From assembly GCA_021818105.1 (NCBI GenBank), contig JAKAFB010000008.1, forward strand, positions 18,706-82,705: 64,000 nt of DNA. The letters are read 5' to 3'. Below, piece by piece: positions 7,265-49,945 of this stretch. Numbering within the stretch: position 1 is the first letter of the stretch; the number at the start of each line of letters is the position of its first letter. The notes under the pieces were generated by a model, which had not been told where the DNA came from, ran no database searches, and saw nothing but the letters and a program-made list of their open reading frames with translations. The position numbers were made by a program, and so were the translations under genes. This DNA comes from Acidobacteriota bacterium. Its GTDB lineage: Bacteria; Acidobacteriota; Terriglobia; Terriglobales; Acidobacteriaceae.

Positions 7265-7328
7265 AAGGGTAACGTGGAACGCGCGTGGGTGTCATGCGGT
7301 CCAGCTAAGCTCGCTATGGCAGTGTCCA

Positions 7329-46272: not shown

Positions 46273-46641
46273 ATGCCTCGCGTAAAACGCAGTACCAAGC
46301 GGAATGACCGCCGCAAAAAGATTCTCGACAGAGCCAGCGGCTACTTCCTCACAAAATCCAAGCTCTACCAGGCAGCGCAGGAAGCCGTCGAACGCGGCCT
46401 CAAGTTCGCCTATACCGGCCGCCGCCAGAAGAAGCGCCAGTTCCGCTCCCTCTGGATTGTCCGCATCTCCGCTGCCGCCAAGCTCAACGGCACCAGCTAC
46501 TCCCAGTTCATCAACGGACTCAAAAAGGCCGGCATCGAGCTCGACCGCAAAATCCTCGCCGACATCGCCGTCAAGGACGCCGCCGGCTTCACCGACCTCG
46601 CCAACAAGGCCAAAGCCGCCCTCGCCGCCAAGGCCGCGTAA
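46273..46641 (+). CDS. rplT: 50S ribosomal protein L20
   Basis: [100 protein letters not shown]. Confidence 0.98.
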
Positions 46642-46667
46642 CAGCAACAATCCAGTAGCAGGCAGCA

Positions 46668-46700
46668 AAAAGCCCCGGAGCAATCCGGGGCTTTTGCATT
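46668..46700 (+). terminator. Rho-independent terminator of rplT
   Basis: aaaagccccgga-gcaa-tccggggctttt followed by gcattt. Confidence 0.9.
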
Positions 46701-46790
46701 TGCCTGACACCACGCATACCCCGCGCGATGGTACGATCCGATCGCGTTGCCGTGCGCAACGGCAAGCGCGGAAAGGGAGCAAGCCTGACA

Positions 46791-46982
46791 ATGAGCCAGT
46801 ACACGGATGAAGAATTCAGGAAGATGGCCGATGAAATTGGTGACTGGATAGCAAAAGACGTGATTATCCACATTCCCCAAAATGCCTCTGTGCATCGTGA
46901 GGCAGTGGGTGTCTGGGTCGAGTGTCAGGTCCTGGTGCCTTGGCCTCAAGAATCAAATGCAAATCAATCCGAAAGCCTATAG
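46791..46982 (+). CDS. Small hypothetical protein, convergent with and overlapping the DpnI-like gene
   Basis: 63-aa ORF MSQYTDEEFRKMADEIGDWIAKDVIIHIPQNASVHREAVGVWVECQVLVPWPQESNANQSESL; preceded by ggaaaggga. Confidence 0.45.
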   Translation: MSQYTDEEFRKMADEIGDWIAKDVIIHIPQNASVHREAVGVWVECQVLVPWPQESNANQSESL

Positions 46983-47731
46983 TGGCCCCGGCCTGAAAAA
47001 TGAAGCACACCAAGGTCCAGAAGGATCTGCAACTGCTGGCGAATCTTGTCCCTCACATGTCGATTCCCCGGATACGCTATTGCAAATTCGCTCTCCAGCG
47101 CATAAATATCGCCCAAGCTAAATGTCGCCTTGCCCAACTCGCGCACCATCTGAAGCGTCAGTAGCGTCCATCCGCGCTGCTTAACATCTTTCTTCGCCAA
47201 AGGCAGAAATCGTTGAAAACGCCTGCGCACATCCGCGACAGGCTGCACTACGCCTTTTTCAACTACAGCAACTTCGCCGTCGCTTGCTATGCGGTCAAGT
47301 CGAATATTGCACCCAACCCAACCCGCACGACGAGCGTTTGGCCCAAGCGGCGGTCGCTTCTCAACGACTTCAGGCACAAGGAAGCTGGAGTGTATTGCTG
47401 CAAACGACCGAATCTCCCAGTCCTTTGTTCGCTCAAGCAGGCAAAGCGTCGGAGCCTTCCGCGAGAGCACGCGCTGCATCATCGCATCAAATGCGCCATC
47501 CACCAGCGAGCCACGCGGACGCCGCTCGAACGTCTTCAGTTCATACCGGTGGCTGCACTTCGGACAAACAAAGTCCGTTGCTCTCGTATTCGCCGCTGTC
47601 GCGCGTACTTCATCCGCGTCGCAAGCAAGGCAATAAGCGTTGCGCGCAAACCAGCCCTCAGAAAGCACCCGTGCGCGCTGTGAGGCACTCTTGTAGTGCT
47701 CCGCTAGCGAAAGGTCGCAAATCAAATCCAT
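46964..47731 (-). CDS. DpnI-like Type IIM methyl-directed restriction endonuclease
   Basis: Strong full-length match, from memory, to the DpnI protein: LAEHYKSASQRARVLSEGWFARNAYC-C, TDFVCPKCSHRYELKTF (PD-(D/E)XK D...E-x-K with Zn Cys), DGAFDAMMQRV, KRPPLGPNARRAGWVGCNI, KQRGWTL, KIRQQLQILLDLGVLHFSGRGHYRL (wHTH). Confidence 0.93.
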   Translation of the reverse strand: MDLICDLSLAEHYKSASQRARVLSEGWFARNAYCLACDADEVRATAANTRATDFVCPKCSHRYELKTFERRPRGSLVDGAFDAMMQRVLSRKAPTLCLLERTKDWEIRSFAAIHSSFLVPEVVEKRPPLGPNARRAGWVGCNIRLDRIASDGEVAVVEKGVVQPVADVRRRFQRFLPLAKKDVKQRGWTLLTLQMVRELGKATFSLGDIYALESEFAIAYPGNRHVRDKIRQQLQILLDLGVLHFSGRGHYRLSD

Positions 47732-47792
47732 GCAGCCGCCCCAAGTTACCTTGCGCCAAGCATAACCGAAGCAGCAGACACGACGAGCTCAC

Positions 47793-48524
47793 TCACTCCG
47801 GCCGCAGCACCAGCTTGTCATACAGCCCGCCCACAATGGCTCCCACCGTCACAGCCGCCAGAGCGATGTAACCCGCTTCTATCCCGAACAACGTATGCGG
47901 CAGCCGTGCGATGCCAAACCAGCTTGCTGCAATCAGGGCCCCGCCCAGCAGCGCAGCCATCAGCACTCCCTGCAGCACGCCTTTGCGGTGTCTCACCGCA
48001 AGCAGCCACGCCACCCCGTAGGCGAACAGCAGACACACCGCCGCGGTCAGCAGGTGCGGCGAGAGCCACCACACAATCTGCTTCACCTGCGCTTGCGTCA
48101 GCCCCACGGCCTGCATCCACTCCGCGCGGAACATGTAGTGCGAATGCCAGATGGCTCCCACGTACCAGGCCACAAACGCCGCCAGAAGCACGGGCAGATG
48201 GTAAATCTGCTTCCTTCCCGCCTTCACTTCGACTTCCTTGTACGGCACGGCTTGCACCGCCTCGGCCAGGCAGTCCTGGTTACACTCCGCACGTTCCGGC
48301 CAGCGCGTACAGTCACACAAGCGCAAACTGGTACTCGCCTCCAAGACCGTCGCCTCTGCATGCCGCAGATCAATGCCGACAACGGCTGGTTTCTGGTTCT
48401 CCGGGCATGTCACCGGTCGGCCGCCCGAATACCGCTCGCGAATCGCACGCCGCCACAATGCCGGCAGAAGCAGCAGGAAGGAAACTACAACAGCAAACAC
48501 CACGAGCCAGATGAGGAAGACCAT
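47793..48524 (-). CDS. Hypothetical membrane protein with Cys-rich cytoplasmic motif and C-terminal DUF1761-like TM region
   Basis: MVFLIWLVVFAVVVSFLLLLPALW...LRLCDCTRWPERAECNQDCLAEAV...LLAAFVAWYVGAIWHSHYMFRAEWMQAVGLTQAQVK.... Confidence 0.75.
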   Translation of the reverse strand: MVFLIWLVVFAVVVSFLLLLPALWRRAIRERYSGGRPVTCPENQKPAVVGIDLRHAEATVLEASTSLRLCDCTRWPERAECNQDCLAEAVQAVPYKEVEVKAGRKQIYHLPVLLAAFVAWYVGAIWHSHYMFRAEWMQAVGLTQAQVKQIVWWLSPHLLTAAVCLLFAYGVAWLLAVRHRKGVLQGVLMAALLGGALIAASWFGIARLPHTLFGIEAGYIALAAVTVGAIVGGLYDKLVLRPE

Positions 48525-48838
48525 GGCCCACCACCTTATGGCCGGAAGTCTGCACCCCCGTCGCAATTCATTCAGTGATCCCCATCACATTTGCCGGAGC
48601 CTGCATCACAACTGGCCGGATACCCGGTTGCCCCGCCCACACACGCATTCCAAACTAGGCGCTAGAAGCTGAGAACTGGCAGTTAAAGTACCCCGGGCCC
48701 CTACCCGCTTTAATATTTGCAGTTTTCCACAGAAGGCTTGCCGATAATTTCACCTCCCGCCTGCGCCCCAGCACGCACGCCGCCAGCCATTCATGCGCCT
48801 TCGCCGCTCCATGCAATGGTTTATCCTGCTGATAACGC

Positions 48839-49945
48839 ATGACGAACGAAGCCATTCCCAATCTGACGGCATTTGACGAGGCCGCCCTCGACCAGGCCTT
48901 TGCCGCATTGGAGCGCCAGGCCCGCGACGGCGCTTCCGCGCTCTCATCTCCTGAAGCAGTTGAGGCTTTTCGTTTGCAGTGGCTCGGCCGCAAGCAGGGT
49001 CTGCTCAAGGATGTCTCTGACCGCTGGCTCAAAGCCGCCCCGCCCGCCGCAAAAAAGCCCGTCGGCGAGCGCTTCAAGGTTCTCAAGGAGCTGGTCGAAA
49101 CCCTCCTCGACGCCGCTCTGGGCGCGGGTCCCAGCGACGCCGCCCTCGCCGCCGAAGCCATCGACATCACTCTGCCCGGCACCCGCCGCCTCACCGGCGC
49201 CGAGCACCCCATCACCCGCACGCTCAATGAAATCGTCTCCGTCTTCGCCGCGCTCGGCTACTCCGTCGGCGTCGGCCCCGAGGTCGAAACCGACTTCTAC
49301 AACTTCGAGTGCATGAACTTCCCGCCCGGCCACCCCGCCCGCGACACCCAGGACACCCTCGTCGTCGCCGGCCAGGAGCGCCGCGCCCAGCGTGACCGCC
49401 TCCTCCTGCGCACCCACACCTCGCCCGTTCAGATGCGCACCATGGAGCAGCAGCCACCCCCGGTCCGCATCGTCATTCCCGGCAAAGTCCACCGCAACGA
49501 CGCCCAGGACGCCACCCACTCGCCCATCTTCCATCAAGTCGAAGGCCTCTGCGTCGACACCAACATCACCTTCAGCGACCTGAAGGGCACGCTCGACCAC
49601 GCCATGAAGGCCCTCTTCGGCTCGTCCGTCAAAACACGCTTCTTCCCGTCGTTCTTCCCCTTCACCGAGCCCTCGGCCGACGTGCAGATCAGCTGCATTT
49701 TTTGTGGAGGGAAGGGCTGCCGCAAGTGCAAGCAATCCGGCTGGATTGAGCTGCTCGGCTGCGGCATGGTCGACCCCGCCGTCTTCGCCTTCGCCGCGGA
49801 AAAGCAACCCGCCTACGATCCGAAAAAGATCTCCGGCTTCGCCTTCGGCATGGGCGTCGAGCGCATCGCCATGATGAAGTACGGCATCAGCGAAATCGGC
49901 CAGTTCTACGCCGGAGATATGCGCTTCCTGGGGCAATTCGCATGA
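48839..49945 (+). CDS. pheS: Phenylalanyl-tRNA synthetase alpha subunit
   Basis: TRTLNEIVSVFAALGYSVGVGPEVETDFYNFECMNFPPGHPARDTQDT..., PVRIVIPGKVHRNDAQDATHSPIFHQVEGLCVD, ISGFAFGMGVERIAMMKYGI. Confidence 0.97.
   Translation: MTNEAIPNLTAFDEAALDQAFAALERQARDGASALSSPEAVEAFRLQWLGRKQGLLKDVSDRWLKAAPPAAKKPVGERFKVLKELVETLLDAALGAGPSDAALAAEAIDITLPGTRRLTGAEHPITRTLNEIVSVFAALGYSVGVGPEVETDFYNFECMNFPPGHPARDTQDTLVVAGQERRAQRDRLLLRTHTSPVQMRTMEQQPPPVRIVIPGKVHRNDAQDATHSPIFHQVEGLCVDTNITFSDLKGTLDHAMKALFGSSVKTRFFPSFFPFTEPSADVQISCIFCGGKGCRKCKQSGWIELLGCGMVDPAVFAFAAEKQPAYDPKKISGFAFGMGVERIAMMKYGISEIGQFYAGDMRFLGQFA

Follow-up and report, generated by a model that had tools for sequence, protein, structure and literature searches.

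A solitary DpnI-type endonuclease gene in the variable rplT-pheS interval of an Acidobacteriaceae genome

Between rplT and pheS, on the strand opposite to both, a genome of the family Acidobacteriaceae (GCA_021818105.1) carries a gene for a 255-aa protein, which raises the question of what this protein does, whether its host could tolerate it and how it came to lie there. The gene was examined within the window, i.e. the whole 64,000-nucleotide stretch of contig JAKAFB010000008.1 analysed here; the positions of all features are listed in Table 1. A preliminary description had read the gene as a solitary relative of DpnI in a host without Dam methylation, and as a horizontally acquired insert.

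Table 1. Features of the rplT-pheS interval and of the DpnI-like protein encoded in it (window coordinates; residue numbers as in DpnI)
Feature	Position	Strand	Remarks
rplT	46273-46641	+	flank of the dpnI interval
rplT terminator-like hairpin	46663..46700	+	GCCCCGGAGCAATCCGGGGC plus T-rich stretch; left edge of the variable segment
Variable segment	46701..47790		small ORF plus dpnI; absent from G038 (blastn)
Small ORF	46791..46982	+	63 aa; converges on and overlaps the 3' end of dpnI
dpnI-like gene	46964..47731	-	255-aa ORF; predicted methyl-directed type IIM restriction endonuclease
DpnI_C region	46967..47185	-	Pfam DpnI_C (1.8e-22); DpnI alignment; conservation over 95 homologues
PD-(D/E)XK catalytic domain	47186..47731	-	residues 1-182; ungapped DpnI alignment
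W138	47318-47320	-	methyl cleft with L129/R135
K66	47534-47536	-	active-site residue, catalytic domain
E64	47540-47542	-	active-site residue, catalytic domain
D53	47573-47575	-	active-site residue, catalytic domain
DUF1761-like gene	47793..48566	-	just under the Pfam cut-off; 61 bp upstream of dpnI, same strand
pheS	48839-49945	+	other flank of the dpnI interval

The window protein aligned with Streptococcus pneumoniae DpnI without gaps and from end to end, 96 of 252 residues being identical (38%), and DpnI (4esj/4kyw) was its sole match in the PDB (E=9.2e-57), in agreement with the near end-to-end likeness first proposed. The profile comparison suggested at that stage also returned both expected families above their curated cut-offs, namely Pfam DpnI (PF06044; 3.5e-51, 173.9 bits, cut-off 26.7) and DpnI_C (PF17726; 1.8e-22, 79.7 bits, cut-off 23), and PADLOC assigned the protein to mREase_II (4.9e-68). 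The plus-strand frame across the same positions is interrupted by stops.

According to the crystal study of R.DpnI (PMC4117772), D53, E64 and K66 form the active site, the bases are read by S17, Q18, N48, D78, R126 and R135, the methyl cleft consists of L129, R135 and W138 (with G140), and K229 and R231 of the winged helix are required for activity. All of these residues were shown to be identical in the window protein, and the motifs picked out in the preliminary description were found to hold them: D...ELK corresponds to D53...E64-L-K66 with no loss of D, E or K on alignment, the RRAGWVGCN part of the claimed RRAGWVGCNI block includes R135, W138 and G140, and KIRQQLQIL in the C-terminal winged helix-turn-helix includes K229 and R231. 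L65 was likewise among the tested contacts that are kept. The only altered contact is N77, which is replaced by V; this position is highly variable in the family, and in DpnI it contacts a flanking base only and does not contribute to specificity. Across 95 homologues, most of the base-reading and methyl-cleft residues were nearly invariant. The CLAC...DFVCPKC pattern was confirmed as C34, C37, C56 and C59, four cysteines that are invariant across the same homologues and that we take to be zinc ligands. As a separate observation, the orthologue at the rplT-pheS locus of L017 carries Tyr in place of Trp138, a substitution reported to leave DpnI partly active (PMC4117772).

Protein structure prediction using AlphaFold yielded a model of the window protein with a pLDDT of 93.6, for which Foldseek reported E-values of 1e-26 to 1e-28 against DpnI (4esj_B: E=1.3e-26, TM 0.89/0.94), the predicted fold being that of DpnI. 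Judged from its sequence, the product is an intact, ordinary and well-preserved DpnI-family endonuclease, which should cut Gm6ATC. We infer that the gene is expressed, that its product cleaves DNA with this sequence specificity and that the host lacks G6mATC.

The draft genome of the host (3.6 Mb, 97.9% complete) was searched for dam, as had been suggested, and contained no match to Dam-class (D12, PF02086) methyltransferases, to phage-type Dam (PF05869) or to TIGR00571. On the contig carrying dpnI, neither a D12 nor an N6_N4 methyltransferase was found. The 'DpnC partner' that had been sought alongside was a misnomer, since DpnC is DpnI itself and only dpnD would be a separate partner; no dpnD-like gene was recognised with the window dpnI. 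Two N6_N4 (beta-class) methyltransferases are encoded on host contig C27, both of which match phage methyltransferase families and one of which is fused to ParB_N. GATC sites were not depleted in the window (202, compared with 220 expected from base composition), and DpnI predicts no such depletion. Taken at the level of gene content, the window dpnI thus appears to be solitary, with no cognate methyltransferase and in a host that lacks a Dam-class gene.

The interval in which the gene resides is variable. In 47 genomes with neighbouring rplT and pheS, its length ranged from 136 to 5258 bp (median 601), the commonest cargo being an abhydrolase gene. In G031 (L120) and G041 (L142), the interval holds an AAA_21 (AbiEii-like) gene and an RloB-like gene, likely representing a defence pair, and in L015 a HicB-like antitoxin gene, of which L017 has a homologue. 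A drg cassette of Neisseria that lies between highly conserved genes has been likened to a minimal mobile element (PMC4269198), and the rplT-pheS interval fits this description. Within the window, the ATG of the 63-aa ORF is preceded by AAAGGGAG; its product had no match in Pfam, NCBIfam or PHROGs, and among the loci compared a homologue was found in L019 only (48% identical, in the same convergent position). The DUF1761-like gene and the abhydrolase gene were considered as parts of a system and rejected because both occur without dpnI, the former being retained in the dpnI-free genome G038.

With regard to the origin of the gene, dpnI was found in the rplT-pheS interval of six genomes (the window, G044, G017 in truncated form, L015, L017 and L019), with no variation in its orientation with respect to pheS. 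The identity of the five relatives to the window DpnI was 77% (G044), 75% (G017, remaining part), 71% (L015), 62% (L017) and 58% (L019), and the corresponding PheS identities of 90, 88-89, 85, 84 and 83% followed the same rank order. In the DpnI tree, the six locus copies and six copies located elsewhere or unplaced in Acidobacteriaceae formed one set of 12, within which two changes of locus were observed. Between the window and G044 genes, dN was 0.18 with saturated dS, which reads as purifying selection at the sequence level.

A recent horizontal insertion into the interval, which would be a rival account of the origin of the gene and not of its function, has two observations in its favour. 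The nearest relative, G038 (98% PheS identity), has no dpnI: blastn aligned the flanks of the two intervals (91% and 87% identical) and left a 1.09-kb segment unaligned, in place of which (window 46701-47790) G038 (L103) carries 0.95 kb of unrelated DNA with a GIY-YIG gene. Moreover, the GC content of dpnI is atypical, as had been remarked from the outset (55.9%, compared with 62-66% in neighbouring genes; GC3 58%, compared with 83-84% in rplT and pheS). However, the GC content of dpnI is below that of pheS both in the window and in each of the four relatives with a measured pheS value, so that low GC is no mark of recent arrival; five other genomes carry the gene in the same place and orientation, with divergence in PheS rank order; and the G038 interval is repeat-rich, the GIY-YIG gene being surrounded by GTCATCTTGAGCG-type repeats and the rplT terminator-like hairpin occurring four times, which fits replacement or loss in that genome. 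A recent insertion is therefore considered unlikely, and the plain insert originally envisaged is not supported, although the comparison with a locus lacking the gene did reveal a counterpart without dpnI between the same flanks. What stands of that proposal is a first gain that was likely horizontal, given how patchy the gene is (12 of 149 relatives). Instead, dpnI seems to have resided in the interval for a long time, with patchy retention and frequent loss or exchange, and exchange between relatives may proceed by recombination in the flanks.

Two further readings concern function. The patchy spread, the low GC3 and the broken dpnI copies in relatives G017 and G122 could point to the remnant of a foreign gene, silent or in decay, but the open frame with all active-site residues, the low dN at saturated dS and the orthologues at the same locus make this very improbable. 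A similarly slim chance is given to a DpnI relative that recognises a different target (6mA in another context, hemimethylated DNA or a longer site) and coexists with adenine methylation by the host N6_N4 enzymes. Since identity to DpnI is only 38%, relaxed or altered specificity is conceivable, and the two beta-class methyltransferases and the V at the N77 flank contact could be cited in its support; against it, the GATC- and methyl-reading residues all match those of DpnI and are for the most part nearly invariant across the 95 homologues, and the methyltransferases are of phage-family type, on C27, one in a ParB_N fusion. The explanation that we hold with high confidence is that of a solitary DpnI-type (type IIM) enzyme in a host unmethylated at GATC, resident in the variable rplT-pheS interval; nothing contradictory to it was found.

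In one relative, a Dam-type cassette directly follows the resident gene. In G017 (Acidobacteriaceae bacterium fen_408, PLOI01000010.1), where dpnI and a cassette occupy L026 6914-10950 at the rplT-pheS locus, dpnI ends at approximately codon 135-140, before W138 (on one MAG contig), and its 3' half was not found on that contig. The truncated gene is followed by a 150-aa ORF, a Dam-family methyltransferase gene (TIGR00571, 258 bits, cut-off 114.85; the DpnII-system enzyme DpnM being its nearest solved structure, 5.9e-62), another D12 methyltransferase gene and a gene for a 344-aa putative nuclease. The latter carries a D...FEMKS motif and gave a poor predicted model (pLDDT 59.5); it is regarded as a putative PD-(D/E)XK enzyme because this motif is conserved and a homologue has a sub-threshold PDDEXK_9 match. 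The same three cassette genes were observed in the same order and without dpnI in G139 (59, 66 and 51% identity), and of the 149 relatives only four had a match to the cassette nuclease, that in G086 being weak and partial. In G085, a piece of the nuclease lies beside dpnI (63% identity over residues 170-341), and from such adjacency the same cassette family would appear to meet dpnI again in G085 and G416.

By gene order, G017 appears to be an instance of DpnI/Dam replacement of the pneumococcus and Neisseria type, the joint lying near base 7320 of one MAG contig. In the five genomes with an intact dpnI at rplT-pheS, no Dam-family match was found, which, for these few cases, is consistent with the Dam/DpnI incompatibility known from Neisseria and pneumococcus. 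An intact dpnI and no Dam-family gene were noted in the cultured Terracidiphilus gabretensis S55. We propose only tentatively, at somewhat less than even chances, that in Acidobacteriaceae the rplT-pheS locus serves as a natural site of exchange between a DpnI-type enzyme and a Dam-type restriction-modification cassette. If true, neighbouring lineages would carry opposite GATC methylation rules, and soil bacteria would add a third such switch, independent of those in pneumococcus and Neisseria.

Signs of contact between the two gene families were also seen in a wider set of genomes. In G416 (L161/L168), which belongs to another class, a drg-like dpnI is flanked by a dam remnant of ~70 N-terminal residues and by a 212-aa homologue of the cassette nuclease, and in G156 (L162/L169; also another class) an N-terminal dam remnant directly precedes a drg-like dpnI; both genomes encode full-length Dam-family proteins at other loci. 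At several Bacteroidota and Ignavibacteriota loci, including that of FcyTI, dpnI is immediately preceded by a Dam-family gene. In L043, L052, L062, L069, L071 and L088, ORFs of ~320 aa lie upstream of dpnI and abut or overlap it. The matches stop at position 255-257 of the 267-position model (L043, L062, L069, L071 and L088), i.e. ~11 positions short, as if, judging from these alignments, the 3' end of dam had given way to dpnI; frameshifted methyltransferases have been described next to such dpnI-type genes (PMC11037411). Across the phylum, DpnI was detected in 12 of 396 genomes and Dam-family genes above the cut-off in 90 of 396, the cases being few and taxonomically clustered; both occurred together in G156, G416 and G289 (a weak DpnI match), while the other nine of the 12 had no Dam-family match above the cut-off. 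Among 50 named DpnI genomes, 12 had Dam-family matches above the cut-off, so membership of the Dam family alone is no proof of GATC methylation or of conflict. An additional dpnI copy, in a Bacteroidaceae MAG (L075 8001-8759), contains three in-frame TAA stops, and its genome (G577) encodes a full-length Dam-family protein (274 bits).

Among the closest known systems is R.DpnI of S. pneumoniae (type IIM; 4esj, 4kyw), with which the window gene shares the two-domain layout, length, ungapped alignment, all functional residues tested, predicted fold and stand-alone state without a methyltransferase, while differing in identity (38%), locus and residue 77 (N in DpnI, V in the window). Neisseria drg (NmeBII), the product of which cuts GmeATC in gonococci (PMC4269198), is likewise a low-GC DpnI-family gene that neighbours a tRNA-synthetase gene, at a variable position enclosed by conserved genes; however, the insertion site of drg lies within or alongside dam, adjacent to leuS (PMC4269198), whereas the window gene lies between rplT and pheS with no dam remnant. 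No dam-like sequence or remnant was found in the host genome, the drg arrangement being seen in G416 and G156. FcyTI and Psp4BI (PD-(D/E)XK-wH; PMC11037411) belong to the same family and share its architecture. FcyTI is the dpnI product of L069 and shares 38% identity with the window protein; it has been shown to cleave within Gm6ATC, and its toxicity is confined to Dam+ E. coli (PMC11037411). Its gene, unlike that in the window, lies immediately downstream of a Dam-family gene, the match of which does not reach the C-terminus of the model. The complementary DpnI/DpnII cassettes of pneumococcus (PMC3573125) find their likeness in G017, where a Dam-type restriction-modification system takes the place that dpnI has in the window and dpnI is cut short; G017 differs from them in that a 5' half of dpnI is left and that its cassette combines two D12 methyltransferases with a putative endonuclease that is unrelated.

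In the mechanism that we propose, the PD-(D/E)XK domain would read GATC together with its two adenine methyl groups through the L129/R135/W138 cleft and would cut within Gm6ATC, while the C-terminal winged helix would read a second Gm6ATC site. Host DNA would be spared because it is unmethylated at GATC, and DNA arriving from Dam+ bacteria, be it of phage, plasmid or chromosomal origin, would be cut. On this view, purifying selection has kept dpnI in the rplT-pheS interval in part of the lineage, with loss or exchange in other lineages, once for a Dam-type restriction-modification cassette.

The enzyme family is known and its function is predictable; what is modestly new is the history of the locus and the exchange of DpnI for Dam in one relative. 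This acidobacterial lineage is predicted to have no adenine methylation at GATC and to degrade DNA that comes from Dam+ bacteria, and Dam- donors would be advisable when transforming Acidobacteria with E. coli plasmids. The rplT-pheS locus may further serve as a comparative setting for the switch between methylating GATC and cutting methylated GATC.
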